Origin: Salvia splendens
Taxonomy: Eukaryota > Streptophyta > Magnoliopsida > Lamiales > Lamiaceae
Assembly: GCF_004379255.2 (NCBI RefSeq)
Contig: NC_056034.1
Span: 6,698,501-6,762,500 of the forward strand
Direction: 5' to 3'
DNA length: 64,000 nt
Part shown: one piece after another, positions 2,002 through 50,403 of the stretch
How positions within the stretch are numbered: the first letter of the stretch is position 1
Layout: the number at the start of each line of letters is the position of its first letter
Notes under the pieces: model-generated
What the model saw: the letters and a program-made list of their open reading frames with translations, nothing else
Told to the model about the DNA's origin: nothing
Database searches by the model: none
Translations under genes and position numbers: made by a program

Positions 2002-3948
2002 GAGTATCTCCAGTAAGACTGGACGTCAAATAGCCCTCACATAGCCTTCACACTGCCACATCATCAACACTACCTGCCACATCAGCTTGCCACATCAACT
2101 GGACATCAAATAGCCCTCACATAGCCTTCACACTACCTATCCACATCACTAATAACAATTATATAATTTAATTTACACTCGTATCAACATACGGAATGTA
2201 ATTTACGAGACAAATACATTTAAATTGAATAATACTATTAAAATTTCAAAAAGTACAATAATTTTAAAAAAAATACATTTAAAAAAATTACATAAATTTA
2301 CATAAAAACTAACGCCTTGCAATCCTCTGCGCCCACAACTCTTCAACTAAATCCTTTGGAGTCGAATATGAGCCTCCGTCTGACGCATGTCGGCATGTGC
2401 TTGGAGGAGGGCTTCTTCATCGTGAGGTACCCCACCTCGTACGTTGGCGGTGGCGACGCCGTGGCTTGGACCGGCCTCATTATCGTCGTTGGCCCAATCA
2501 GTCAGTTGTACACCTTCATCTTCGACAATCATGTTGTGCATGATAATACAGGCGTACATTATATCAGCAATGCAGTCGACATTCCACAAACGCGTTGGTC
2601 CCTTAACTGCAGCCCATCGAGCCTGAAGCACACCAAATGCGCGCTCCACGTCCTTTCGCGCCGACTCCTGCCGCGTCGCAAAGTAGGCCTTCTTCGCATC
2701 TGATGCGCACCGGATCGTCTTCACAAAGACGGGCCACCTAGGGTATATCTCATCCGCCAAGTAGTAGCCCATATCATGCTGGTTGCCGTTGGTGACAAAA
2801 CTGATGGCCGGACCGACGCCCTGGCACTGCTCGTTGAAAAAGGGCGACGAGTTGAGGACGTTTAGGTCGTTGTTCGAAACGGCTATCCCAAAATGCGCAT
2901 GCCAAATCCACAACCGGTAATCAGCTACGGCCTCGAGGATCATCGTGGGATTTTTTCCCTTGTAGCCGGTCGTGTAAAACCCCTTCCAGGCAGCGGGACA
3001 GTTCTTCCACTCCCAATGCATACAATCTATGCTGCCTAACATTCCCGGGAACCCATGCTGATCCCCGTGCATCCGCAGCAGATTCCGGCAATCTTCGGGG
3101 GTAGGCTTTCGGAGATACTGATCACCGAATACTTCGATCACGCCCTGACAGAAATACTTCATACATTCGATGGCAGTCGTCTCACCGATGTGGAGGTATT
3201 CGTCCCACATGTCTGCCGCGGTGCCGTAGGCCAACTGCCTGATTGCCGCAGTACACTTTTGAATAGGGGTGTGGCCGGGTCTTCCAGCCGCATCGTGCCT
3301 GAAGCGGAAATACAGATATCGCTGCTCCAAAGCGTTAACAATACGCATAAACAAGTCCTGCCTCATCCTAAAACGACGCCTGAAATGGTTGGCGTTAAAA
3401 CGCGGCTCCTCTGCGAAGTAATCTGTGAACAGACGCTGATGTGCAGCTTCATGATCACGATCAACCACTTGTCGACGGTGGACAACTGATCGTGGGCGAG
3501 GTGCCGCCGGCTGCATATAACTCTGCATCCATCGATCAACCTCACGGCTCGTATAGGCATCTAGCTCTTCGTTCATCATACGCTCGTACTCATCCGCATC
3601 CCCACCACTACCACCGGCATTACTCATTTCTTAAATTGATCTTGTACAGAAAGTAAGGTAGAGAGAGAGTACTCGTTAAAACAAGTGGTGCGAATGAAAA
3701 TGACGTTCAAAGCGCGTATATATAGTGTTTTCAAAAGAAAAAAAAATAAAAAATAAAATCTGACGCCGGTTTGACGCCGATCCGGGACCCACAATGGCGC
3801 CGTGAGGATCGGCGTCGGAACCGGCGTCATCGCGCGAATCGGCATGGCCACGCCGATTTCGCCGACGCCGGTTCCAATGGTTCGGCGTCAGAACCGGCGT
3901 CGGTGAAAAATCGGCGTCGCAATTTTGACGCCGGCATTGGAGATGCTC
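2002..3948 (-). mobile_element. PIF/Harbinger element A, 1947 bp
   Basis: The element is bounded by imperfect TIRs (GAGTATCTCCA... at 2002 and ...TGGAGATGCTC ending at 3948) and by a 3-bp TAA duplication at 1999-2001 and 3949-3951. Both the TIR type and the TWA target are typical of PIF/Harbinger. The empty site is visible in the intact paralogue near 63080. It contains one transposase gene on the minus strand and no room for the Myb-like second protein that autonomous family members usually carry. Near the left end a 34-bp stretch at 2031-2064 is repeated at 2100-2133 with one difference, and CCACATCA is repeated between them: possible transposase-binding subterminal repeats. Confidence 0.93.
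2347..3627 (-). CDS. Harbinger transposase, element A (nearly intact)
   Basis: A 426-codon DDE_4 (PIF/Harbinger) nuclease starting at ATG 3627. It shows an N-terminal acidic region, the helical block with FRRRFRM, the first Asp in GSIDCMHWEW, the second Asp in SNNDLNVLNSS and the Glu in ARKDVERAFGVLQ. These are the expected catalytic Asp-Asp-Glu. Relatives in this window end in a D-L-(I/V)-E-E-(V/L)-W-A tail. Here one A appears to be missing in the Gln-Lys codons near 2350, so the frame ends about 17 codons early; the expected tail is readable in the next frame. Catalytic residues are intact, so activity is not excluded. It could be named ALP1-like by similarity, but TIRs and TSD show it belongs to a transposon. 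Confidence 0.9.
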   Translation of the reverse strand: MSNAGGSGGDADEYERMMNEELDAYTSREVDRWMQSYMQPAAPRPRSVVHRRQVVDRDHEAAHQRLFTDYFAEEPRFNANHFRRRFRMRQDLFMRIVNALEQRYLYFRFRHDAAGRPGHTPIQKCTAAIRQLAYGTAADMWDEYLHIGETTAIECMKYFCQGVIEVFGDQYLRKPTPEDCRNLLRMHGDQHGFPGMLGSIDCMHWEWKNCPAAWKGFYTTGYKGKNPTMILEAVADYRLWIWHAHFGIAVSNNDLNVLNSSPFFNEQCQGVGPAISFVTNGNQHDMGYYLADEIYPRWPVFVKTIRCASDAKKAYFATRQESARKDVERAFGVLQARWAAVKGPTRLWNVDCIADIMYACIIMHNMIVEDEGVQLTDWANDDNEAGPSHGVATANVRGGVPHDEEALLQAHADMRQTEAHIRLQRI

Positions 3949-26953: not shown

Positions 26954-28267
26954 TTAAAATACTAAAAATAAAAAAAAACCACTACTCGTTGCGAATTTCG
27001 CCCACATGTGTTTGATTAGGTCTTCTTGTAGCTCAATGTGGGTTCGGGTATCGCGCATTGCGTGCCTTGTCTCGATCCTCTGGCCCTCCGTCGTATGCAC
27101 ACCTCGGCGTGGGGGATACCTCGCGGTTGAACTCCCGGCTTCATCCTCGTCGTAGAAGCTAGCCGCCCTCGGTCCTTCGTCGGCTATGATCATGTTGTGT
27201 AAGATAATACACGTGTACATGATGTCGGCGATATTATTCACGTACCAGAGCCGAGCCGGGGCCTTCACAATGTTGAATCGGGCTTGAAGGACCCCAAAGG
27301 CTCTTTCGACGTCTTTCCACGCGGACTCTTGACGCTGCGCAAAAAGAACTCGTCTCGGGTTGTGCGGGTTGCTGAGCGTCTTCACGAAAGTCGACCACCT
27401 TGGGTAGATACCATCGGCGAGATAGTAACCCATGTGGTATGTATTTCCGTTGATGGTGAAGTCGATCGCCGGTGCTACACCATTCATCACATCATTGAAG
27501 AGTGGTGAAGAATAGAGCACGTTCAAGTCGTTGTTGGATCCGACAACGCCGAAATATGCATGTCAAATCCATAGGCGGTAGTCGGCGACCGCCTCAAGGA
27601 TAAGTGTTGGGCAGCCGCCTTTGTGACCGCTTAGGTGTTGCCTCCTCCAAGCAGTCGGGCAATTCTTCCACCTCCAATGCATGCAGTCAATGCTGCCAAG
27701 CATTCCGAGAAAGCCATGGACTGATTCGTGAAGACGAAGTAACCGTTGGCAATCATCGGTGGTGGGTACCCGAAGGAATTCATCACCGAAAGCTGAACGA
27801 ACGCGCTCGCAAAATTTTTTTAGACAAAGGATTCTAGTGGACTCACCGATATGCAAATACTCGTCGAAGAGGTCGGCCGTTTGCCTAGTAGCGAGTTGTC
27901 GGATGGCACACGTACACTTCTGCAACGGCGTGATACTTTGCCGGCCGGCTGCATCTGGACTTGTTTGGAAGAATTCAACACGTGCGGACAATGTGTTGAC
28001 AATTCGCATAAACAAGCGCGTTGACATGCGAAAACGGCGCCTGAAGTAATCTGCCGGAAACCGCGGCTGGTCGGCAAAGTAGTCGGCAACGAACCTTTCG
28101 TGGGCTCCCTCCCGGTCACGATGGATGTAGCGGCGAGTTGATCTAGTTCGTTGAGGAGGAGGAGCGGGGGTATTCACCGCGACATATGCTTCGTAAGCGG
28201 CACGATGTTGTTCGTAGTATTCTTGTTCTTCGCGCTCCGCTTTCGCCATAAGATGGGTGAAATCCAT
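26954..28267 (-). pseudogene. Harbinger transposase, element C, one in-frame TGA
   Basis: From ATG 28267 (MDFTHLMAKAEREEQEYYEQ) the frame is open for 438 codons except for a single TGA at 27565-27563. It shows FRRRFRMSTRLFMRIV, the first catalytic Asp in GSIDCMHWRW, the second in GSNNDLNVLYSS, and the Glu in AWKDVERAFGVLQ. The TGA replaces a conserved Trp just before HAYFG, and is followed by C (TGA CAT). No other defect is obvious. It is called a pseudogene on the usual rule; readthrough would restore a full-length enzyme, so the status is open. Confidence 0.85.
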
Positions 28268-34769: not shown

Positions 34770-34787
34770 AATTTTTGACACGACACG

Positions 34788-35504
34788 TGATGGGGTGCGT
34801 ACTAAACAAGCCCAACAGCAACGACGGCCCATCAGCCCAAAGCCCAAGCAGGAGTATGAGTTCGGCATTACCAAAGAGTTCGGCCTCAGCCTACAGCTCG
34901 GTAAAAGCCAACCTATCAAGCTCTGCTCTCAGGTCGGCATCAAGCTCTACTCTCAGATCGGCAACCAAAGCAGGAGTATGAGTTCGGCATTACCAAAGAG
35001 TTCGGCCTCAGCCTACAGCTCGGTAAAAGCCAACCAATCAAGCTCTACTCTCAGATCGGCAACCGAAGCAGTTCGGTCTCAGTATTCGACCGAACAAGGA
35101 GTTAGTGGACCCATACAGGATGTCCAACACACCCACTACCACGTGGTGTCAACTCAGGCCACGATCGTAGGCCATGACCTACGCTACATCCACGATCTTA
35201 GGCCATGACCTACACGACATCCACGACTTAGGGTGGTGATGCAAGCCACGATCTTAGTTCAAGATATAAATAGAACTTAGATCAGATAGAAGAGGGTTAA
35301 GCTCTCTAGAGATAAAACACCATATAGCAAATAGCAAGTTTGTATTTGTAAGCTGTAGAAAACAGATCAAGCAATACAATCTTGCCCTCCCTTTTTCCCG
35401 TGGACGTAGATTTACTTCAGTAAATCGAACCACGTAAATTCTTTGTGTCATAATCTTCATTCTCTACCAGCATTTACAAACATCAGAAATTCGCGGATTC
35501 ATCA
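34788..35504 (+). repeat. 5' LTR
   Basis: 717 bp, TG...CA. Contains an internal near-tandem duplication: the block from GCAGGAGTATGAGTTCGGCA at about 34849 recurs at about 34971. ATCTTAGGCCATGACCTAC-type repeats occur near 35165-35215. I saw no difference from the 3' LTR at 45193-45909. Confidence 0.95.
35265..35272 (+). promoter_or_regulatory. Probable TATA box of the LTR
   Basis: TATAAATA inside the 5' LTR, repeated at 45670-45677 in the 3' LTR. Transcription would start about 30 bases further on. Confidence 0.65.
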
Positions 35505-35505
35505 C

Positions 35506-35523
35506 TGGCGCCGTCTGTGGGAA
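35506..35523 (+). other. Primer-binding site
   Basis: TGGCGCCGTCTGTGGGAA starts one base after the LTR end. This is the common Tat-group type. The matching tRNA was not determined. Confidence 0.8.
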
Positions 35524-35579: not shown

Positions 35580-37694
35580 ATGCATACCAGATCGCAGAGT
35601 ACCCGCATTCCTGCCCGTGAGAACCAGGAGGAAGCCAATCCATCCCATAGGTCTGGAAAACAGCCTAGGGATAAATCCACCACCAGTTCTCATGGCGAAG
35701 GAACAGGCCGCTCCAAAAATCGTCCCACTGAGTCTTCCCAGCAGCCTGATTTGAATGAGGCTGTCAAGCTGTTCTTGGCTGAGAAGCAGGATGAGTTCTT
35801 AGCCTTCCTGCAAAAGAGCCAAGAGCCGAAGACGAAAACGGAGGATTCTCCTTCCTCATCCAGACATGAAAGTCACTACCGCAGTAGTGCCGTGTCTTCC
35901 AGGAAGAAGAATCCTCAACCCCGACATATTCCTGTTCTTCCTCGGTACCGGAATCACAGGAGAACTCAATCTCCTCCATACCGACGAGATATCGGATTCG
36001 CCGTGTACGGAGCACTGAAGACTCCGTTCTCGGACGACATCACCCGAACTCCCCTACCACAGAACTACCGAACTCCGTCGATGACTTACGACGGGCTCGT
36101 GGACCCTCACGATTTCTTGGGGCGCTATCAGTATAACATGGCGAACCAGGGTCTCAACGAGGTCCACATGTGCAAGCTGTTTCCCGAGCTGCTCATCGGG
36201 AACGCGAGAAGGTGGTTCGATAGCCTCCCCCAGGGCAGCATCAGATCTTACCGAGATCTAATGGATGCCTTCCACAGGAGGTTCTTTCAGAAAGCGGAAG
36301 CCCGAGTCACTTCGGCTCAGCTGCTTTCCATTCGTCAAGGTCGCGACGAAAAAATCAGCGACTTTATGACAAGATTCCACAAGGAATGCCTGCAAGTGGA
36401 CGATCTCAACGATCTGCTTGTCATCTCGGCATTCCAAAATGGAATCTTGCCCGGAGCTCTCTACAGGAAGCTCGTTGAGTGCGGTCCGCAGACAGCTCAG
36501 GAAATGTGGGACATTGCGGACCAGTACTCCCGGGCCGATGAGGCAGACCGTCGCAAACGGTCGTTAGACAGCTCATCGTCCCGAGGAGACAGGAGGAAGC
36601 CCGATCATAGCGATCAGGGACATCCTCGCCGAACTCCTTTTGGCGATCAGGGACATCCTCGCCGAACTCCTTTTGAAAGGATTCAAAGGACTCCGGTGCA
36701 AGACAGATTGGGACCCCGTCTCAATCCCGAGAAGCCGCCCGCTCAGTTCGTACCGCTGAACAAGCCGAGAGCGGAAATTTTCGAACTACACTCTGACCTG
36801 TTCGAAAAGCCAAAGCGGATGACGAAATCTGCCGCGCGCCGACCCCAGGATAACTACTGCTCCTACCATCAAGACCACGGTCACGATACCGAGGAGTGCA
36901 GAAACTTGGCTGCAGGTATCGATGTTCTTGTGAGGGCAGGGACATTGAAAAAATACCAAAGCAAGCAGTCAAAGAAGAATAAGAAGCAGAGAGGAGCGAA
37001 CTGCGCCCCTCAGGATCCGAAAAAGCAGCCGGATCCCGAAGACGATGACGAGCCGCAATATGATGGAGTAATCCTGACTATTGACGCTCTCCCTGCTGGG
37101 AAGACCAAGTCGTCCCTGAAGTCAGAGCGCAGAGGCTCCAATCGAGAGGAGCCAACGCATAAAAGGCTGAAGCAGGACGAAGTGATTACGTTCTCGGATG
37201 CTGATCCCGTCCCGGCCATCTCTCCTCACCAAGACGCCATTGTCATCCAAGCCGGAGTGGCAAACAAACTGATCCACAGGGTGTTTGTGGATACAGGAGC
37301 GTCAGTCAGCATTCTTTTTAAGGAGTGCTTCGACAAACTAGAAGTGGACCCAGCTCGGCTCAGCCCGGCTCCGCTTCCCCTGAAGAGCTTCGCCCAGGAG
37401 GACACCCGCCCTGAAGGTATTATCAGCCTTCCGATCACGGTGGGGAAAGCGCCTACTAGCTCCAGTACGATGATTGAGTTTTTCGTGGTGAAAGCTCGGT
37501 CCCCGTACAACGTCATCCTGGGAAGAGACTGGCTCAACACAGTTCGGGCCATTTGCTCCACTTATCACCTCACCATCAAGATCCCTACTAAAGGAGGGAT
37601 AGCGGTCATCCGAGGTGACCAAAAGAGAGCAAAGGAATGTCTGCAAATTGCGCTTAGAAGTGCCGAGCAGTCAGATCGGCACCACCAAGCATAG
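35580..37694 (+). CDS. Tat-group Gag-protease, 704 aa
   Basis: Starts at ATG 35580 (MHTRSQSTR), 75 bases after the LTR. Residues 1-130 are Ser/Arg-rich and probably disordered. The retrotransposon Gag capsid domain lies at about 165-290 (the FPELLIGNARRWFDSLP and FHRRFFQKA blocks). A zinc-knuckle-like C-H-H-C element (CSYHQDHGHDTEEC) lies near 430. A pepsin-like protease follows with active site DTGAS at about 571 and the VILGRDWL flap-side block near 645. A repeated GDQGHPRRTPF phrase near 350 is a short tandem duplication. The frame stops at TAG 37692-37694; the pol frame continues in phase. Confidence 0.93.
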   Translation: MHTRSQSTRIPARENQEEANPSHRSGKQPRDKSTTSSHGEGTGRSKNRPTESSQQPDLNEAVKLFLAEKQDEFLAFLQKSQEPKTKTEDSPSSSRHESHYRSSAVSSRKKNPQPRHIPVLPRYRNHRRTQSPPYRRDIGFAVYGALKTPFSDDITRTPLPQNYRTPSMTYDGLVDPHDFLGRYQYNMANQGLNEVHMCKLFPELLIGNARRWFDSLPQGSIRSYRDLMDAFHRRFFQKAEARVTSAQLLSIRQGRDEKISDFMTRFHKECLQVDDLNDLLVISAFQNGILPGALYRKLVECGPQTAQEMWDIADQYSRADEADRRKRSLDSSSSRGDRRKPDHSDQGHPRRTPFGDQGHPRRTPFERIQRTPVQDRLGPRLNPEKPPAQFVPLNKPRAEIFELHSDLFEKPKRMTKSAARRPQDNYCSYHQDHGHDTEECRNLAAGIDVLVRAGTLKKYQSKQSKKNKKQRGANCAPQDPKKQPDPEDDDEPQYDGVILTIDALPAGKTKSSLKSERRGSNREEPTHKRLKQDEVITFSDADPVPAISPHQDAIVIQAGVANKLIHRVFVDTGASVSILFKECFDKLEVDPARLSPAPLPLKSFAQEDTRPEGIISLPITVGKAPTSSSTMIEFFVVKARSPYNVILGRDWLNTVRAICSTYHLTIKIPTKGGIAVIRGDQKRAKECLQIALRSAEQSDRHHQA

Positions 37695-37700
37695 CAATCA
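37689..37700 (+). promoter_or_regulatory. Candidate leaky stop: UAG followed by CAA UCA
   Basis: The stop TAG (37692-37694) is followed by CAATCA, which fits the CAR-YYA consensus of the tobamovirus-type readthrough signal. The frame then stays open to 40985, with no ATG until 37722. Readthrough would make a Gag-Pro-Pol fusion. This is inferred from sequence only. Confidence 0.65.
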
Positions 37701-40700
37701 CAGCAGCCGGAGTCAGAGGCGATGACCGAAGTCATACATGAGCCGAACTCGATGACAGTTCAGCTGTACGAAGACGATCCATCCAGAACGGTTAAGATCG
37801 GCTTCGCTGGAACGCCTCTACTTCGGGAAAAAACCATCCAGCTCCTCAAGGAGTACAAAGACGTCTTTGCATGGTCTCCGTTGGACATGACCGGAGTGCC
37901 CCCCGAGGTAATCACTCATCGTTTAAATATTGATCCTTCGGTCCGGCCGATAAAACAGAAGCAAAGACTCTTTGCGGCAGAACGAAGTCAAGTCATCCAT
38001 GACGAAGTCCGTCAATTATTGAAGGCGGATGTGTTATTCGAAGTGAAGTACCCTTCGTGGGTGGCCAATCCTGTCATGATCAAGAAAAAGGAAGGAGGAT
38101 GGCGGATGTGCATAGATTTCACCGATCTAAATAAGCACTGTCCCAAAGATTGCTATCCCCTTCCGAACATAGATAAAAAAGTAGAAGCTCTGATAGGCTT
38201 TGAAATTTTTTGTTTTCTTGATCTATACAAAGGATACCATCAGGTTTTAATGGATGAGATTGACGCTTCAAAGACAGCCTTCATTACTGATTTCGGCATT
38301 TTCGCTTATAAAAAGATGCCATTCGGTTTAAAGAATGCCGGAGCCACTTATCAAAGGATGGTAGACAAGCTTTTTCGGCACCTGATTGGAAAGGAGGTCG
38401 AAGTGTATGTTGACGATATAGTCGTCAAGAGCAAAAGCACCTCGGAGTACGAGCACAACCTCAAGTCCACTCTCAACGTGCTCAAGAAAGCCAACCTCAA
38501 ACTTAATCCCCAAAAGTGTACCTTTTTGGTAGATTCGGGAAAGTTTCTGGGTTGTTGGGTTTCAAAAGACGGACTCAAGGCAAACCCCTCAAAAGTTCAA
38601 GTCGTTCAGAACATGGCAATGCCGAAGTCCATACATGACGTGCAAAGGCTAACCGGATGTCTAGCCGCACTGAGTCGATTCCTTTCCCAAGCTGCCGAAA
38701 AGCAACTGCCGTTCTTCAAGGTGTTGAAAAAGGCACCAAAGTTCGAGTGGGGAGCCGAGCAGAAAAAGGCCTTTGACGAGCTTAAAAGTTATCTAGCCGA
38801 GCTTCCTATTCTCTCAGCTCCAGCCGAAGCCGAAGTACTATTCTTATACTTAGCGGCATCGGATCAAACCATCAGCGCGGTGCTTGTACGAGAAGAAGGC
38901 CTAAAGCAGTTTCCCATCTACTTTACAAGCCGAGCATTAAGAGGTCCAGAAACAAGGTATCAACCTCTGGAAAAAATTGCTCTGGCGTTAGTAAATGCAG
39001 CAAGGAGACTGCGGCCATACTTCTATGCTCACAAGGTATGCGTCTTAACCGATCTACCTCTTCGGCAAGTTTTGACCAAGCCAGAAGCATCAGGCAGAAT
39101 CGCCAAGTGGGCTATAGAGTTGGGAGAGCACACAATTGAATATCTACCTCGGAAAGCCATCAAGGGACAAGCCTTGGCAGATTTTCTTGCAGAAGCGAAG
39201 TTCGATCAAGCAATTCCTGTTATTGCCGAACAGAAGAATTCTGCCAATGCCGAACTAGCACAGCCCTTGGAATCCGAAGTAGAGCCGCCGGACTGCTGGA
39301 GCGGATTCGTAGATGGAGCTTCAAACAAGATGGGAAGTGGAGCTGGTATTTTACTTGTCGCTCCCGACGGACACGAGGTAACCTACTCACTTCGTTTCCT
39401 ATTCCCCACTACTAATAATGAAGCCGAGTACGAAGCCCTCCTGGCCGGACTCCAGTTAGCGCAAAGTCTACTCGTCAAATCTCTCAAAGTCCATTGTGAT
39501 TCACAAGTCATAATAAATCACATGTTGGGTACAAGTGAAGCCCGTGACGAGAGAATGAAGAAGTATTTGGACAAAGCGCAAAGCATCAGCCGAAGTTTCT
39601 CCTATTTTCGGATAATCCGCATTCCCAGAGCGGAAAATAGCCGAGCAGATACCTTAAGTAAGTTGGCCTCAGATCCGAGCTCAAAGGCGGAAGAATTAAT
39701 GCATCGAAGCATTGATGAAGCCGAGGTACATTCTGTATCCAGCTCGCCGAACTGGATGACGCCGATCTTGCAGTATCTGGATCAAGGACAATTGCCCGAG
39801 GATAAGAGAGAAGCTCGGAAGATCACGTGCCGAGCACTTCGGTACGAACTTCATGAAGGATTCCTCTTTAGAAAGTCTTACCTCCAGCCGTTATTGCGGT
39901 GCGTAGGACCAGAAGAGACGGACTACATCCTCAGAGAAGTTCATGAAGGATCGTGCGGTAGCCACATCGGAGCCAGAGCTTTAGCTAAAAAAGTTCTGAG
40001 ATGGGGATATTATTGGCCAACCATGGTACAAGAGGCAGTGCAGCTCGTCAAGAAGTGTACGAAGTGCCAAATTCATGCAAATGTCCCAAGGATGCCGCAG
40101 ACCGATCTATACACTATGCAAAGCCCTTGGCCTTTCATGCAATGGGGCATAGACATAGTGGGACCACTTCCTCAAGCTCCTCGGCAAATGAAATTCCTTA
40201 TCGTTGCCGTGGACTACTTCACGAAGTGGGTGGAGGCTGAACCATTAGCTACGATAACGAGCTCAAAGGCATTGGACTTCGTCTGGAAGAACATAGTGTG
40301 CCGATTTGGCATACCCCACATCCTCATCTCGGATAATGGGACTCAGTTCACCGACAAGACGTTCAAGAATTGGTGCCAAGAGCTGAACATTCAACAGCGG
40401 TTCACTTCGGTCTCCCATCCCCAAGCAAACGGACAAACGGAAGTAACGAACCGGATTCTGGTGAAAGGGTTAAAAGCTCGGTTAGAACAAGCCAAAGGAC
40501 AATGGGTAGAAAATCTCCCTCAAGTCCTATGGTCCTACCGAACTACACCCAAAACCTCCAACGGTGAAACTCCGTATAGCCTGGTGTACGGCACTGAAGC
40601 CGTAATTCCGGTGGAGATCGGCGTACCCAGTCCCCGAACTCTAAATTTCTCCTCAGAAATGAATGACGACGGACTGAGAGCAGAACTAGATCTCGCCGAA

Positions 40701-40985
40701 GAAAGAAGAGAATTGGCGTGCATAAAAGCAGCCAAGTATAAGGAGCAAGTAGCCCGGTATTATAACCAAAGGGTGAAAAAGCTTCAATTTCAAGTGGGAG
40801 ATCTCGTCTTGAGAAACAACGAAGTAAGCCGAGCAGAAAAGCTGGGCAAACTCGAACCCACCTGGGAGGGTCCATATCGGGTGTCCGAAGTCCTCGGCAA
40901 AGGGTCTTATAAATTGACTCACATGTCAGGAGAACAAGTACCCCGAACATGGCACATCTCCAACCTCAAGAAGTTCCACTTGTAA
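37695..40985 (+). CDS. Tat-group Pol: RT, two RNase H domains, integrase
   Basis: Open in phase with gag after the TAG; the first ATG is at 37722, giving 1087 residues if initiated there. The RT has WVANPVMIKKK, MCIDFTDLNKHCPKD, the FLDLYKGYHQ block and the YVDD box at 38406. Next comes the gypsy RNase H-like connection (YLAASD ... RYQPLEKIALALV), then a second RNase H of archaeal type (FVDGASNKMGSGAG, NNEAEYEALLAGL, VHCDSQVIINH, RADTLSKLAS). The integrase has an H-H-C-C finger (ending CTKCQ), the core (WGIDIVGPLP, ISDNGTQFTD, QANGQTEVTNR) and a C-terminal GDLVLR ... TWEGPYRV block. Length and order are complete for Tat elements. Expression could use readthrough, or internal initiation on a spliced RNA. 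Confidence 0.95.
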   Translation, partial: QSQQPESEAMTEVIHEPNSMTVQLYEDDPSRTVKIGFAGTPLLREKTIQLLKEYKDVFAWSPLDMTGVPPEVITHRLNIDPSVRPIKQKQRLFAAERSQVIHDEVRQLLKADVLFEVKYPSWVANPVMIKKKEGGWRMCIDFTDLNKHCPKDCYPLPNIDKKVEALIGFEIFCFLDLYKGYHQVLMDEIDASKTAFITDFGIFAYKKMPFGLKNAGATYQRMVDKLFRHLIGKEVEVYVDDIVVKSKSTSEYEHNLKSTLNVLKKANLKLNPQKCTFLVDSGKFLGCWVSKDGLKANPSKVQVVQNMAMPKSIHDVQRLTGCLAALSRFLSQAAEKQLPFFKVLKKAPKFEWGAEQKKAFDELKSYLAELPILSAPAEAEVLFLYLAASDQTISAVLVREEGLKQFPIYFTSRALRGPETRYQPLEKIALALVNAARRLRPYFYAHKVCVLTDLPLRQVLTKPEASGRIAKWAIELGEHTIEYLPRKAIKGQALADFLAEAKFDQAIPVIAEQKNSANAELAQPLESEVEPPDCWSGFVDGASNKMGSGAGILLVAPDGHEVTYSLRFLFPTTNNEAEYEALLAGLQLAQSLLVKSLKVHCDSQVIINHMLGTSEARDERMKKYLDKAQSISRSFSYFRIIRIPRAENSRADTLSKLASDPSSKAEELMHRSIDEAEVHSVSSSPNWMTPILQYLDQGQLPEDKREARKITCRALRYELHEGFLFRKSYLQPLLRCVGPEETDYILREVHEGSCGSHIGARALAKKVLRWGYYWPTMVQEAVQLVKKCTKCQIHANVPRMPQTDLYTMQSPWPFMQWGIDIVGPLPQAPRQMKFLIVAVDYFTKWVEAEPLATITSSKALDFVWKNIVCRFGIPHILISDNGTQFTDKTFKNWCQELNIQQRFTSVSHPQANGQTEVTNRILVKGLKARLEQAKGQWVENLPQVLWSYRTTPKTSNGETPYSLVYGTEAVIPVEIGVPSPRTLNFSSEMNDDGLRAELDLAEERRELACIKAAKYKEQVARYYNQRVKKLQFQVGDLVLRNNEVSRAEKLGKLEPTWEGPYRVSEVLGKGSYKLTHMSGEQVPRTWHISNLKKFHL

Positions 40986-41227
40986 GAGACAAAAGTCCGG
41001 TCAGTCCGTCTCGTGTCTAGTTCGGTCATAGGGGTATGTGTTTTTATTTGTTTGTTTCTTACTTGCACCTCTTGTCGTTTTATAAAAAGTTTAAAGTTTT
41101 TTCTTTCGTCTTTTTCATTTTTTCTCTCTGTGTTTTGTCCCTATGTGCTTGTCGTCTCTTACAAATGGTACCAAGGTATATCGTTCTTTAAAGACTGATC
41201 CCCTTTTTAGATCGATTATTAAAGACT

Positions 41228-41398
41228 ATTGTGAGTCCAAGCTTCTAAGGAGGATATAAGACCACAATTCAGCTTAACAAGCAGTCCGTCTGAAACGAAC
41301 TGCAATAAGCCAACGATTGTGAGTCCAAGCTTCCAAGGAGGATACAAGACCGCAATTCAGCTTAACAAGCACTTCGTCTGAAACGAACTGCAATAAGG
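41228..41398. repeat. Two-copy tandem repeat, about 89-bp unit
   Basis: A stretch from TTGTGAGTCCAAGCTTC to CTGCAATAAG at 41228-41309 recurs at about 41317-41398 with a few changes. A further phrase GATCCACGCGATAAA(A/C)CTCGCCGAATTAGGAC recurs at about 41408 and 41541. This is part of the non-coding tail after pol. Confidence 0.85.
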
Positions 41399-41625
41399 GA
41401 AAGTCCGATCCACGCGATAAACCTCGCCGAATTAGGACGACCAAGTTCGGTCAAAGAAGTTTACCTCATAAGACCGGGGACGACCATGTCTAGTCAAAGA
41501 GGTTTACTGCATAAGACCACTTCGGTTAACTGGGAAAGTCCGATCCACGCGATAAAACTCGCCGAATTAGGACAAGGGAAAGTTCGATCCCGGCGACAAA
41601 AATCGCCAAATTAGAACACAAACCA

Positions 41626-41859
41626 AGTCCGGTCAAAGATGTTTATTTCATCAGACCAAAGACGAGTCCGGTCGAAGATGTTTATTTCATCAGACCAAAG
41701 ACGAGTCCGGTCTAAGATGTTTATTTCATCAGACCAAAGACGAGTCCGGTCGAAGATGTTTATTTCATCAGACCAAAGACGAGTCCGGTCAAAGATGTTT
41801 ATTTCATCAGACCAAGGACCAAGTCCGGTCAAAGAAGTTTACTTCATAAGACCGAGGAC
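41626..41859. repeat. 39-bp minisatellite, five near-identical units plus one degraded
   Basis: The unit begins AGTCCGGTCAAAGATGTTTA and repeats every 39 bases, with single-base changes between units. A sixth, changed unit ends near 41859. Because 39 is divisible by 3, the array is open on both strands as a 13-residue repeat. I do not take that as evidence of a protein. Confidence 0.93.
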
Positions 41860-41994
41860 AAGTACGATGAAATTTTTTCGCTAAGCTGTAAATACAGTGT
41901 TAGAAGCGAAAACAAAATTTCATTTATCAAATCTTGTTCGGCATACAACTCCGCTACCCTACAAAATGGCGTTACGCTATTACAAAGGACTATT

Positions 41995-42783
41995 CTACTG
42001 TCCAGGGTTGCTGAAGTTAAGCCACCTATCTGCAAAATCCTCTGGAAGCCGAGTTCGGTTGTTCCGAGCAGATGAAGAATAAGCAGGTCGACGAGATGCT
42101 ATCCTCGACCCAACGCCTCTTCCCCGAGCCCGAGAAGTCCTAACACCTCGGCGATGAAGAGTCTCTGCAATAAGCATCTGCTGATCTTGCTCGCTCATAG
42201 TCACAACTCCTCGGCGAATTTCAGTCCGTCCCCGTCTTGACGATTCCGGTTGCTCCTGAGCCCGTTCTCGACTTGACGTTTCCGGCTGTTCCGGAGTTCG
42301 TTGTTGGCTGGGAGTAGGATTTTGAACAAGGGAACCAGAGGTTTGATCTGGAGTGCGAGCATCTGTTGGCGCGATATGCCGGAGGAATCTCTCAATTGAG
42401 GGACGCCGGGCAAGAACAATGTCGTACCGAGAAGCCCAGCGCCGCAATGATTTCACGACTTGTTGGCAAGCCGAGCTCTCCAGCGCATTGTTCCTCCGGA
42501 GTACATTATACTCCTCCCACAGTTCGTCAACTCGTTCCTGAACTTCTGATACGGTCATTCCCCCGCGCACACGGATGTAATCCTCATACGCAGTCCTCTC
42601 AGCAATGGCCGTATTCAGCTCGGCCTCCAGATCTTTCTTATCGGACTCTAAGTCCTTGATATCGGCATCCAGCTTCACTAAACGAGCCAGAAGCTCGTCA
42701 TTTTTCGTCTGATCGGCTATAGCTCTTCTCTCAGCTTCGTCCAAAGCCGAAGAGTACAGCCGTTTCCAGTGAAGTATCTCCAT
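41995..42783 (-). CDS. Antisense ORF of the Tat element, coiled-coil protein, 262 aa
   Basis: Open from ATG 42783 (MEILHWKRLYSSALDEAERR). Residues about 10-110 are heptad-like, rich in Glu, Lys, Leu and Ala; residues about 135-190 are low-complexity Thr/Pro/Gln/Ser; the C terminus is Arg-rich. A CAAGGAG-type AG just upstream of the ATG means it could be another exon of the antisense gene at 42984-44841 rather than a separate gene. No known domain was recognised. Confidence 0.6.
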   Translation of the reverse strand: MEILHWKRLYSSALDEAERRAIADQTKNDELLARLVKLDADIKDLESDKKDLEAELNTAIAERTAYEDYIRVRGGMTVSEVQERVDELWEEYNVLRRNNALESSACQQVVKSLRRWASRYDIVLARRPSIERFLRHIAPTDARTPDQTSGSLVQNPTPSQQRTPEQPETSSRERAQEQPESSRRGRTEIRRGVVTMSEQDQQMLIAETLHRRGVRTSRARGRGVGSRIASRRPAYSSSARNNRTRLPEDFADRWLNFSNPGQ

Positions 42784-42983
42784 CTCCTTGGGTACAAAGC
42801 AGCTATATTAGTTCGGCAGCTGTACCGAGCAGATAGTAAAATACAACAGGAATAAAGGCGAGTACGAAAAGCTATACGAAGACAAGTATAGAGAATTTTT
42901 CATTCACAAGGAAAATTTTACACTAGGAGGGCATCAAGGCCATTTTACAAGGAAGAAACTAGACTAAGAGAAGGGAGACGAAA

Positions 42984-44841
42984 TCATACTCCGCCAGCTT
43001 CGTCTCCGGCTCCTCGGTCTGGTACAGCTTCCTTCTCCTGGGCTACCTCAGCCTCGGCCTCGACTCCTGCCGGCCTCGCCTCCGCCTCCTGATCGGCCTC
43101 CTTCTCCGGATGCCCGGCCCGCTCGACTTCGGCCTCCAGCTCCAGCGGCTCGGCCTCACCCTCTCCGTTGTAAGTCGAAGCGGGTGAAACGGGTCCCACG
43201 GAGGCAAAGATAGCCTCCAGGTTCTCGTCCCGATCAGCTCGACAACTCCGGACTCGGTCTGCAGAAAGCAGGACCGAGGATGAAGCGAGCTCCTCAAGGA
43301 GCGGCAGATTCTGAAGCCGAGCTGCTATCTCTCGGCTGTACAGAGGCAGCACGACGTCGGCCCCCTGCTCGCCCTTATCGGTAATTAGCCTTACCAGACT
43401 ACCGACAAAGGCCGAGAACTGGCTGCTCAAAAAGAGTTTCTCCGTGTAAACACGGAGAGCCTCCCCTTGGGCAACCACGGCAGCAGCATCGCTCCGCTTC
43501 GTCTGCTCTCGCTGGATGACGAGCTGGTTTTTGGCAAACTGAGCTTCATCCTGGGCCGAAATCCTAGCAGCTCTGGCCTTCTCAAAGTTAGCCTCAGCCT
43601 GTTCGGCCCGATGACAAGCAGCCGCCAACTTCCTCTGCATCTCGGCATAGTCATTGGACGCTTTGGAGAGTTCGACGGCGACGAGCTTGGAGAGCATATC
43701 GTTCCTCTGAAAATGAATAAAGAAAAAAGTCAACAAAGGGACCACAAAAATACAGAAAAAAAGCAAGGCCAGAAAATCAAGAAGAGAATTCACCTCGGCG
43801 AAGTCCGTGGGCCATAAAAACGGCTCACAGATATGTTCCGAAGGAGGCGCCAAGACCACGTCTTTCTCTGGCGCTCTCGGGGGCTTCTGGGCCTTCCCCC
43901 TCCCCTTTGCCGAAGTTGACTCCGGCTTCTTCGGATCCGAAGAGGTTTTTTGCCTTTTCGGAGTCCTCTCGGCATCAGACGCCGAGCTGGTGGTTTTCGG
44001 CCTCTCCGGCTCCTTGGACTCCGAAGATTTTCGGGTAGCCTTGTTCAGCATGAACACTGCCAAAAAGCAAGAAAGCAAGGTTAGTTTTCTTCGTTAAAGC
44101 AGTAGAACATAAAGGTAAAGAGAAATCCTCACCCTCGGCCTCTTCGTCCGAAGACGAGATGTCGAACACGACGTCGCCCTTGACGAGCTCAGACTCCGTG
44201 TATTGTTTCCTAACTATGGGAATCTTGTTGAGCTCGTCATCGAGCTCGGCCAATGGTTCTAACCGAGGGTGAGGAATCACGGACTTCGGCCCTCTCCAGG
44301 GGAAGCCCGGAGCCGCTGTCCTATCATAAAAAAAGAAGCGGTTTTGCCATTTCGGCCACTTGGTTTTGCAGAATGCCCTAAAAGGCTGTAAGGGGATCAA
44401 GTAAAACCAAGATCCCTTCCTTTTAAATTGGAAAAAATTAAGGATTGCCCGCAGAGACAGATCCTTATCTAACCTACGGAGTTCGGCAGCAAAAGCCGAC
44501 AAGTGCCTCCAAGAATTCGGAGTCACCTGACCTAAGGGGAGTTGAAAAAAATCAAGAAGCTCTACAAAAGGTGGGGGAAGAGGGAAACGAAGCCCGCATT
44601 CTAAGCAGGCTTCGTAAACGGTGGCATAACCCTCCGGCGGGTCGTTAGCCCTATGATCATCGTCGGGAACCACCGCCTTCCCCCCAGGAAAAGAGTATTT
44701 TTCGTAAAGGGATATCACAGTATCCTTGCTCAAGATACTGTGAAAATACTCTGCGGTCTTCTCCCCGGATTCTTTCCGGCTAGAAGACCCCTTACCCCCT
44801 TTTCTACCGCTACCAGACTCAGACGAAGAGGAAGCAGACAT
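42984..44841 (-). CDS. Antisense gene of the Tat element, 3 exons, 564 aa, Transposase_28-like
   Basis: Read on the minus strand from ATG 44841 (MSASSSSESGSGRKGG). Exon 1 is 44841-44133, exon 2 44056-43794, exon 3 43706-42984. Both introns are GT-AG and the phases match (total 565 codons). Exon 1 encodes a globular part (FHSILSKDTVISLYEKY, GYATVYEACLECGLRFPLPPPFVELLDFFQLPLGQVTPNSWRHL cut here as landmarks by region) like the 'putative gypsy type transposon' domain (Transposase_28) known from antisense ORFs of Tat elements. Exon 2 is basic and nuclear-localisation-like. Exon 3 is a long coiled coil with an acidic Glu/Ala tail. The function of these proteins is unknown. The second intron is AT-rich, unlike the exons. 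Confidence 0.78.
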
Positions 44842-44971
44842 GGTTCTTACTCTTTGAAAGTTTGAAGAAATCCTGAGGAAATTTTTGAAAGCGGAAGGAA
44901 ATTTTTCACGCAAAAGATAGAGAGTGCAGAAGAAGCCAATAGCAAAGGTGTTCAAATGATGAAGAAAGGCG

Positions 44972-44980
44972 GTATTTATC
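44972..44980 (-). promoter_or_regulatory. Possible TATA box of the antisense gene
   Basis: GATAAATAC on the minus strand about 135 bases upstream of ATG 44841. It is weak by itself; it is the only AT-rich TATA-like site between the 3' LTR and the start. Confidence 0.35.
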
Positions 44981-45180
44981 AGATTTGGAAAAGATTTCAA
45001 ATCATCGCACCGTTTCATATCCCACCTTTTCAGGATTCGACGGCCGGATTTTACTGTCGCATTTAATGCCGCATTTAATGCAGTCACGCGCAGGGCACGT
45101 CCCCTGACTTCAGCCTCCCCCGTACCCTTTTCCAGAATGCCGAAGTGACTCGCTTCGCCGAAGTGATTCACTTCGCTTTT

Positions 45181-45192
45181 CGGGGGGGGTAG
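45181..45192 (+). other. Polypurine tract
   Basis: CGGGGGGGGTAG directly before the TG of the 3' LTR, the expected place for plus-strand priming. Confidence 0.75.
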
Positions 45193-45909
45193 TGATGGGG
45201 TGCGTACTAAACAAGCCCAACAGCAACGACGGCCCATCAGCCCAAAGCCCAAGCAGGAGTATGAGTTCGGCATTACCAAAGAGTTCGGCCTCAGCCTACA
45301 GCTCGGTAAAAGCCAACCTATCAAGCTCTGCTCTCAGGTCGGCATCAAGCTCTACTCTCAGATCGGCAACCAAAGCAGGAGTATGAGTTCGGCATTACCA
45401 AAGAGTTCGGCCTCAGCCTACAGCTCGGTAAAAGCCAACCAATCAAGCTCTACTCTCAGATCGGCAACCGAAGCAGTTCGGTCTCAGTATTCGACCGAAC
45501 AAGGAGTTAGTGGACCCATACAGGATGTCCAACACACCCACTACCACGTGGTGTCAACTCAGGCCACGATCGTAGGCCATGACCTACGCTACATCCACGA
45601 TCTTAGGCCATGACCTACACGACATCCACGACTTAGGGTGGTGATGCAAGCCACGATCTTAGTTCAAGATATAAATAGAACTTAGATCAGATAGAAGAGG
45701 GTTAAGCTCTCTAGAGATAAAACACCATATAGCAAATAGCAAGTTTGTATTTGTAAGCTGTAGAAAACAGATCAAGCAATACAATCTTGCCCTCCCTTTT
45801 TCCCGTGGACGTAGATTTACTTCAGTAAATCGAACCACGTAAATTCTTTGTGTCATAATCTTCATTCTCTACCAGCATTTACAAACATCAGAAATTCGCG
45901 GATTCATCA
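45193..45909 (+). repeat. 3' LTR
   Basis: 717 bp, the same length as the 5' LTR, with the same open frames and the same internal duplication. I saw no mismatch by eye. It is followed by the ACACG target duplication. Confidence 0.95.
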
Positions 45910-46620
45910 ACACGATAACACGACACGAACCGGCACGAAAATAATGGGTTTGTGTCAGAGCTTATTGGGTTCGTGTCCTTATTGGGTCGACCCGTTAAGG
46001 ACACGAAAATTTCGTGTCGTGTTCGTGTCGTGTTCGTGTCGGGTTCGTGTTATCCGTTAACAATACGTGTTCGTGTCGTGTTCGTGTTATCCGTTAACAA
46101 ATAATATTTTAATATTATTAATTCTTATTATTTTCATTTTTAATAGGTTTAACCGTTATCAGGTCGTGTTGTTATCGAGTCGTTATCGTGTCATCTCGTG
46201 TACGTGTTGTTATCGTGTCGTGTTGACCCGAATTGGTTCGTGTCGTTAATGGATTCGTGTCGTGTTCGTGTCTGAGGGTTTCGTGTCGTGTTCGTGTTCG
46301 TGTTTGAGGTTTTCTTAACGGGTCGTGTTCGTGTTTGTTGTTATCATGTTCGTGTCGTTATCGTGTCGACACGATAATGACCCGACACGCACGATTTGCC
46401 ACCCCTAGATTAAACCCAATGAATATAATTGATGCGAGTAAATGGGCCCAAGCTGAAGCAATAGAAAACAAAAGTTATAACGGGGGAATTAGTCTTGTGT
46501 AAGTTTATTTAATACCCAATCACAATATACATTGCTATCAGTCTAGTCCAAGCCCGTGTCGTTTCACTGATGGCTGGGTCTTGGTTCGCCCGCCCAATTG
46601 ACAACTCTAATAAGTAGTAC

Positions 46621-49098: not shown

Positions 49099-50403
49099 AT
49101 GAACAATTAGTGGAGAGACAGTTGGAATGCTCTGATTCAACATGTGCAACACCAGGCCGCCCAGGAGGTAGCGGCCCGTTTGGCGGAGGAGGCGGAGGAT
49201 GCGGAGGATCCGATCCCTCGCACCATTACTCATCGGCGGACAATCCCACGAGACCACGTCGGTGCTCACCAACGTCTAATGGATGATTACTTCGTGGATA
49301 ACCCCCGTTATCCACCCGAGATATTCCGCCGGAGATTCAGGATGTCGCAGCGGCTGTTCAACTATATAGCGGCGAATTTGGCGGAGCGTTACCGGTGCTT
49401 CACCCTCCGGCGTGATGCGGCTGGCCGGATCGGGCTGTCCACACAACAGAAGTGCACCGCTGCAATCCGACAGCTTGCCTACGCCGGACCAGCGGACATG
49501 TTCGATGAATACCTACAGATGGGTGAGACGACTGGCCTCACGGTGCTTAGGCAGTTCTGTAAGGGGATCCGGGAAATTTTCGGTGGGGAGTTTCTACGGA
49601 AGCCCAACCCGGATGAGTGTCAGCGCCTACTGGATATGCACGGGTCGGTGCACGGCTTCCCAAGAATGTTAGGAAGTATCGATTGCATGCATTGGGAGTG
49701 GAGGAACTGCCGCGTGGCATGGAAAGGCCAGTTCACTACTGGATTCAAAAGCAAGCATCCAACGATGATACTGGAAGCCGTTGCGGACTATCGTCTGAAG
49801 ATCTGACATGCGTATTTCGGCGTGACAGGTTCGAACAACGACATCAGTGTTCTTCAGTCGTCACCGCTCTTCAACGAGGAGTGCCGGGAGGAGGGGCCAG
49901 AAATCAGCTTTGTAGCCAACGATACGCAGTACAGTAGGGGCTACTATTTGGCAGATGGAATATATCCGCGGTGGCCCGTATTCGTGAAGACTGTCCGCCA
50001 ACCGGTAGGACCGAAGAAACAATATTTTGTGCGCAAACAAGAGAGTGCTAGGAAGGACGTTGAGCGGGCTTTTGGTGTCCTCCAATCGCGGTGGGCTATT
50101 ATACGGTGTCCGGCACGAGTTTGGCACGAAGATGATGTCGCGAATATTATGTTAGCCTGTATCATATTGCATAATATGATAATAGAAGATGAAGGATTTG
50201 TGGCAGAGCGATGGGCGCCGGAAGAGGGCGCAAGTACAAGTCACGGTGTCGCCTCCGCGCCGATCCAGATGGGCGTACCATGGAGCAATGAATATTTGAT
50301 CCAACGCTTCGCTGATATGCGCAGGACCACATCACATAACACACTGCAGGCCGATTTGATAGAAGAAGTGTGGGCACGTAGGGGAGGTGGGGGCGTTGTT
50401 TAA
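49099..50403 (+). pseudogene. Harbinger transposase, element E, two in-frame stops
   Basis: From ATG 49099 the 435-codon frame is open except for a TAG at codon 4 (49108-49110) and a TGA at 49804-49806. Catalytic blocks are complete: GSIDCMHWEW, GSNNDISVLQSS, ARKDVERAFGVLQ, then LACIILHNMI and the tail LIEEVWARRGG. The TGA falls at the Trp before HAYFG, as in B and C, and is followed by C. If translation starts at a later codon the first stop is bypassed; the nearest in-frame candidate is a GTG at 49144. Confidence 0.87.

Follow-up and report, generated by a model that had tools for sequence, protein, structure and literature searches.

Structure of the retrotransposon

The window, i.e. the whole stretch of 64,000 nucleotides of Salvia splendens DNA analysed here, contains an LTR retrotransposon flanked on either side by a 5-bp ACACG target-site duplication (34783..34787 and 45910..45914). 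Its two 717-bp LTRs (5' LTR, TG...CA, 34788..35504; 3' LTR, 45193..45909; both on the + strand) show 0 differences in 717 positions. A putative primer binding site (TGGCGCCGTCTGTGGGAA, 35506..35523, + strand) was labelled by its position just inside the 5' LTR, and a putative polypurine tract (GGGGGGGGTAG, 45182..45192, + strand) was likewise assigned by position.

The first open reading frame (ORF1, 35580..37694, + strand) begins at the first ATG of the gag-protease (gag-PR) frame, terminates at a TAG, and encodes Gag, with a capsid domain and a zinc-knuckle-like motif (CSYHQDHGHDTEEC, 36858-36899, + strand), followed by an aspartic protease. The Pfam match to the protease falls under its cutoff (22.6 of 28.2 bits), but the motif DTGA (37290-37301, + strand) is nonetheless present. 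ORF2 (37695..40985, + strand) occupies the frame of ORF1, ends in a TAA (40983-40985, + strand) and encodes reverse transcriptase (RT) with the motif YVDD (38406-38417, + strand), RNase H, an additional RNase H and an integrase in which the D-D-35-E spacing is kept. The Pfam matches follow the GAG-PROT-RT-RH-INT order of Ty3/gypsy elements, with the additional RNase H located between RH and INT (RT_RNaseH 373-468, RVT_3 530-648, Integrase_H2C2 730-785). Between pol and the 3' LTR, the element harbors an 85-bp repeat in two copies that are 93% alike (41225..41397, + strand), 3' tandem repeats in the form of a 39-bp tandem array, a part at 41587..41899 (+ strand), and several antisense ORFs. Two of these, encoding 262 aa (41995..42783, - strand) and 364 aa (42984..44078, - strand), have no Pfam match, and the third (43975..45324, - strand), which starts within the 3' LTR, matches the Retand marker Transposase_28 (PF04195, E 5.6e-11). 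The three antisense ORFs follow one another (41995-45324, - strand), the one with Transposase_28 coming first in their reading direction, and may represent exons of a single antisense gene.

The initial annotation had described a Tat retrotransposon, and the analysis refines this assignment: by its features, the element is a member of the Retand clade (Tat, Ty3/gypsy), all three Retand features that we tested being present. It shares with the clade (for example Retand, RIRE2, Cinful and Grande) the additional RNase H, which is common to Retand and Ogre, the antisense Transposase_28 ORF, a Retand feature according to PMC11963269, and tandem repeats, here the 39-bp array (PMC6317226; PMC11963269). 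The sizes of its LTR (717 bp), internal region (9.7 kb) and pol-3' LTR interval (4.2 kb) are within the ranges given in PMC11963269.

The identical LTRs, the exact target-site duplication and the presence of the protease, RT and integrase motifs indicate that the element has decayed little, which favours the readthrough reading discussed below and agrees with the earlier description of two intact-looking coding parts in a young copy. Assuming 1.3e-8 or 7e-9 substitutions per site per year, the absence of LTR differences bounds the age of the insertion at about 0.16 or 0.30 My, respectively (95%). Elsewhere in the window, three similar-looking ORFs (2347-3627, - strand, 426 aa; 27563-28267, - strand, 234 aa; 49144-49806, + strand, 220 aa) may encode proteins resembling Harbinger-type transposases.

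The in-frame stop and its sequence context

Direct reading of the junction between the two ORFs (...CAC CAC CAA GCA TAG CAA TCA CAG CAG...) places the stop (37692..37694, + strand) immediately ahead of the hexamer CAATCA (37695..37700, + strand). Read from 35583, the gag frame contains only two stops, TAG 37692 and TAA 40983, and TAG 37692-37694 is hence the sole in-frame stop from the gag start (35580) to the pol end, a distance of about 1,800 codons. No change of frame occurs at the TAG, and the region downstream lies open in the same frame with its domains. A frameshift between gag-PR and pol is ruled out, since both ORFs share one frame. These readings bear out the initial annotation, which had placed Gag-protease and RT-RNase H-integrase in phase across a single TAG, with the frame open from there to 40985 and the next six bases fitting CARYYA. 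The TAG is located in the protease-RT (PR-RT) linker (37665..37757, + strand), a segment of about 31 codons, and the fall of the only stop into so short a segment favours the proposal that it is read through.

The hexamer CAA UCA fits the consensus CARYYA, which after UAG defines the type-I readthrough signal of plants (PMC2754532; PMC2194720) and takes the form CAA UYA in TMV and BNYVV (PMC2754532). In a plant dual reporter, readthrough at the sites of these two viruses reached 32% and 11%, respectively, and the residue identified at the TMV UAG in plants was tyrosine (PMC2754532). The likeness to tobamoviruses and BNYVV is by motif only: UAG followed by CAA UYA is common to both, whereas the viral stop lies in a replicase and is preceded by CAA, in contrast to the GCA that precedes the stop of the element. 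This difference in the pre-stop codon weakens the case for readthrough; a TMV mutant in which both flanks of the stop were altered kept less than half of its readthrough, though replacement of the 5' CAA alone left readthrough still significant (PMC2754532). Downstream RNA folding was ordinary (z -0.43; -1.94 over a wider stretch), which also counts against readthrough, although, according to PMC2194720, a type-I context works by itself. A downstream stem acting as a readthrough stimulator was rejected, its fold being no better than those of shuffled sequences.

Within the window, the + strand carries two TAGCARYYA sites and the - strand none, against 1.95 expected per strand under equal base frequencies; the nine-letter word as such is not unusual. 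CARYYA follows 6 of the 6748 stop triplets found in any frame and on any strand. Inside the gene, in-frame CARYYA appears at just 5 of 1795 codon pairs, including the one after the stop, and both this scarcity and the type-I CAA-UYA form of the context favour readthrough. However, two of the five (37668 and 37695) belong to the linker, where Gln and Ser codons (CAR, TCA) abound, and the chance of drawing CARYYA is 1.6% from the 31 linker sense codons, compared with 0.25% from whole-gene codons. The second linker hexamer (CAG TCA, 37668-37673) follows a sense codon 27 bases upstream of the post-stop one; its presence, the linker composition and the 1.6% chance all weaken the readthrough reading. 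The rarity of the hexamer is suggestive of readthrough, not proof of it. With the TAG site itself excluded, 765 one-step nonsense changes are possible in both ORFs, 17 of them in the linker, and 1 of these 17 also precedes CARYYA. A random stop would therefore rarely join place and context, though not astronomically rarely.

Organization of gag and pol in relatives and known systems

The best 120 of 3621 pol matches (45-55% identical over pol, with Coffea at the top) and 3 gag matches were each compared with gag-PR and pol separately. Among the best 120 pol matches, 91 combine a gag-PR match and pol in a single predicted protein and 29 carry pol with no gag-PR match, the linker being where several of the latter begin. 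These figures are not counts of true organization: a predicted intron may conceal a stop, a pol-only protein may have a mispredicted start, and the set is the best 120 of 3621. The gag-PR match extends to the last part of the protease in 86 of the 91, and the 3 gag matches are all devoid of pol. The 91 two-part proteins weaken the case for readthrough. In 66 of them, those with both ends aligned (25 were dropped), the median PR-RT gap is 30.5 residues versus 30 in the element over the same intervals, and it is within 15 residues of the element's in 52 of the 66 (extremes -39 and +102). The linker of the element does not exceed those of relatives in length, which argues against an extra insert such as an intron. 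At the codon level, the linkers of relatives look unalignable.

Of 63 recently active Retand clusters, 26 are reported to split gag and pol between two ORFs and 37 to have a single ORF (PMC11963269). A split is thus compatible with activity and is no sign of death, a point in favour of readthrough. The share of one-ORF elements is given as 29% in monocots and, as the sentence reads, 83% in eudicots (PMC11963269), and the predominance of one ORF in eudicot elements weakens the case. The available text of PMC11963269 gives ORF counts only, leaving aside the place and frame of the break and the expression of pol. Retand clusters without some domains have amplified (PMC11963269), and an Athila relative with one ORF is described in PMC1142308.

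The sister Tat clade Ogre is organized alike, with GAG-PROT in ORF1 and RT-RH-INT in ORF2 (PMC6317226), and its regulation of the same boundary favours readthrough in the element. In Ogre, however, the ORFs are on average 274 bp apart and the region is partly spliced (PMC6317226), whereas here they are separated by one stop codon. The in-frame type-I UAG at the PR-RT linker belongs to this element and is not described for Retand in the available parts of PMC11963269 and PMC6317226. Likewise, no report of a plant Ty3/gypsy element that reads through a UAG from gag-pro into pol appears among the titles and abstract starts of the literature matches listed. Stop-codon suppression has been reported for another plant retroelement, the soybean Ty1/copia element SIRE1, but there it serves an envelope-like ORF after pol (cited in PMC2194720), and the stop of the present element falls between gag-PR and pol. 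Murine leukaemia virus does have an in-frame UAG between gag and pol, whose readthrough sets the ratio of the two (PMC2194720). Unlike a type-I context, that site requires a purine-rich spacer and a pseudoknot. The murine leukaemia virus protease, moreover, lies 3' of the stop, whereas that of the element lies 5'. For Candida Tca2, the surroundings of a UGA resembling that of MuLV proved insufficient for readthrough in a yeast test (PMC2194720), a warning against inferring readthrough from site resemblance.

Searches for DNA of the same family covered several collections. Viral contigs, queried with the pol protein and a 17-member pol alignment, yielded no confirmed relative. Genome contigs yielded 8 loci, 7 of which come from metagenome bins of bacteria or archaea (30-34% identical). 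The eighth, on Streptomyces clavifer contig BMWJ01000029.1 (L001), encodes a plant-like Ty3/gypsy polyprotein (39% identical) that is open in one frame from the protease-like match to the RT match; it was set aside as evidence on the junction for being too distant, and its occurrence in a bacterial assembly is probably contamination. None of 30 plasmid records has a place covering 80% of pol, and E. coli genomes contain no match to 36500-39000. The full gag-PR protein retrieved 3 matches, the nearest of which (P0121, 50% identical) is a Retand-like gag fragment filed under Escherichia coli, again a probable contamination; its sequence breaks off inside the protease, and it was rejected as junction evidence. 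A protein search with the protease end gave no match among the only 192 candidates that shared words, and so carries little weight.

Proposed readthrough of the UAG and its alternatives

On balance, the evidence leans towards readthrough of the UAG, by which the element would produce Gag-PR together with a minor Gag-PR-Pol product, a reading that draws on one copy. This grading, like those of the alternatives below, is our judgement and was not computed. Most ribosomes would stop at 37694 and release Gag-protease, and a minority would insert an amino acid at the UAG owing to the next six bases, CAAUCA (tyrosine in the TMV context; PMC2754532). The latter would go on in frame to yield Gag-PR-RT-RH-aRH-IN. 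Structural Gag would in this way stay in excess over RT and integrase, which would be tethered to Gag for packaging. The proposal presumes that the stop is inherited within the family, that readthrough proceeds at some rate and that the resulting ratio is of importance to the element.

An ordinary nonsense change is the strongest competitor, although we consider it less likely. It would have arisen in this copy once inserted, or in a parent whose movement intact relatives supported in trans, with CAATCA following by coincidence and other family members keeping one gag-pol ORF. Such an origin accords with the 91 of the best 120 pol relatives whose two parts form a single predicted protein, with the single ORF of 37 of 63 Retand clusters and of 83% for eudicots, and with the amplification of domain-lacking Retand clusters (PMC11963269). 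The codons of the linker make CARYYA a 1.6% event, and an insertion age that may, at the rates given above, reach about 0.16-0.30 My leaves time enough for a stop to appear. The identical LTRs are themselves compatible with a stop already carried by the parent or introduced by an error of reverse transcription, and single nonsense changes arise easily; both points, together with the evidence coming from one copy only, weaken the readthrough reading. Against a chance change stand the 17 of 765 one-step possibilities that fall in the linker, just 1 of which also precedes CARYYA, and the lack of any other in-frame stop from gag to the pol end. The initial annotation's view that a chance nonsense mutation is less likely holds insofar as readthrough ranks ahead, but is tempered by the 1.6% chance that the linker codons confer on the hexamer. 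Its proposal of programmed readthrough is supported in part, its account of phase, motif, anatomy and youth being correct, and had left unweighed both the abundance of CAR and TCA codons in the linker and the possibility of reinitiation.

Reinitiation would express the two ORFs without readthrough, ribosomes stopping at the TAG and some of them restarting at ATG 37722 to make free Pol. This ATG (37722..37724, + strand), in frame, is the first after the stop, 27 bases on, with a G at -3, and among predicted proteins alone 29 of the best 120 pol relatives have no gag-PR match, several starting in the linker. We nevertheless find this route improbable: eukaryotic ribosomes reinitiate inefficiently after an ORF as long as 704 codons, free Pol would be without a Gag tether, and the model has no need of frame-keeping in the nine codons, free of stops, that lead from the TAG to the ATG.

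Removal of the stop by an intron, as between GAG-PROT and RT in Ogre (PMC6317226), is more improbable still. It is possible to draw 54 frame-keeping GT-AG pairs of at least 60 bases around the stop, and 2 of the 11 GTs in 37480-37690 are, by eye, passable donors (37488, GTG|GTGAAA; 37615, GAG|GTGACC). Both, however, fall in the protease-coding part, ahead of the homology end at about 37664; by eye, none of 13 AGs is preceded by more than 54% pyrimidine; the stretch 5' of the stop has just 16% T; and the linker has no extra segment relative to relatives. With splice sites judged by eye, no Ogre-type intron-like segment separates the ORFs, which adjoin in frame. A single-base assembly error at the TAG is the least probable explanation of all, given that 5.4 kb of coding sequence holds no further in-frame stop and that the LTRs agree perfectly.

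Should readthrough be correct, the element may, more tentatively, represent a Retand lineage in which a leaky UAG of tobamovirus type at the PR-RT boundary takes the place of the one gag-pol ORF found in most relatives and of the intron used by Ogre. Two sister Tat clades would then have different RNA-level switches at one place, and part of the 26 of 63 two-ORF clusters may work in this manner. If true, the UAG could set the amount of polymerase that the element makes; control of the Gag to Pol ratio in plant Ty3/gypsy retrotransposons is little understood, since a single ORF is common among them. In an apparently young element, so short a readthrough signal would lend itself to a standard reporter assay, and it raises a well-defined question for the two-ORF Retand clusters that have been catalogued.
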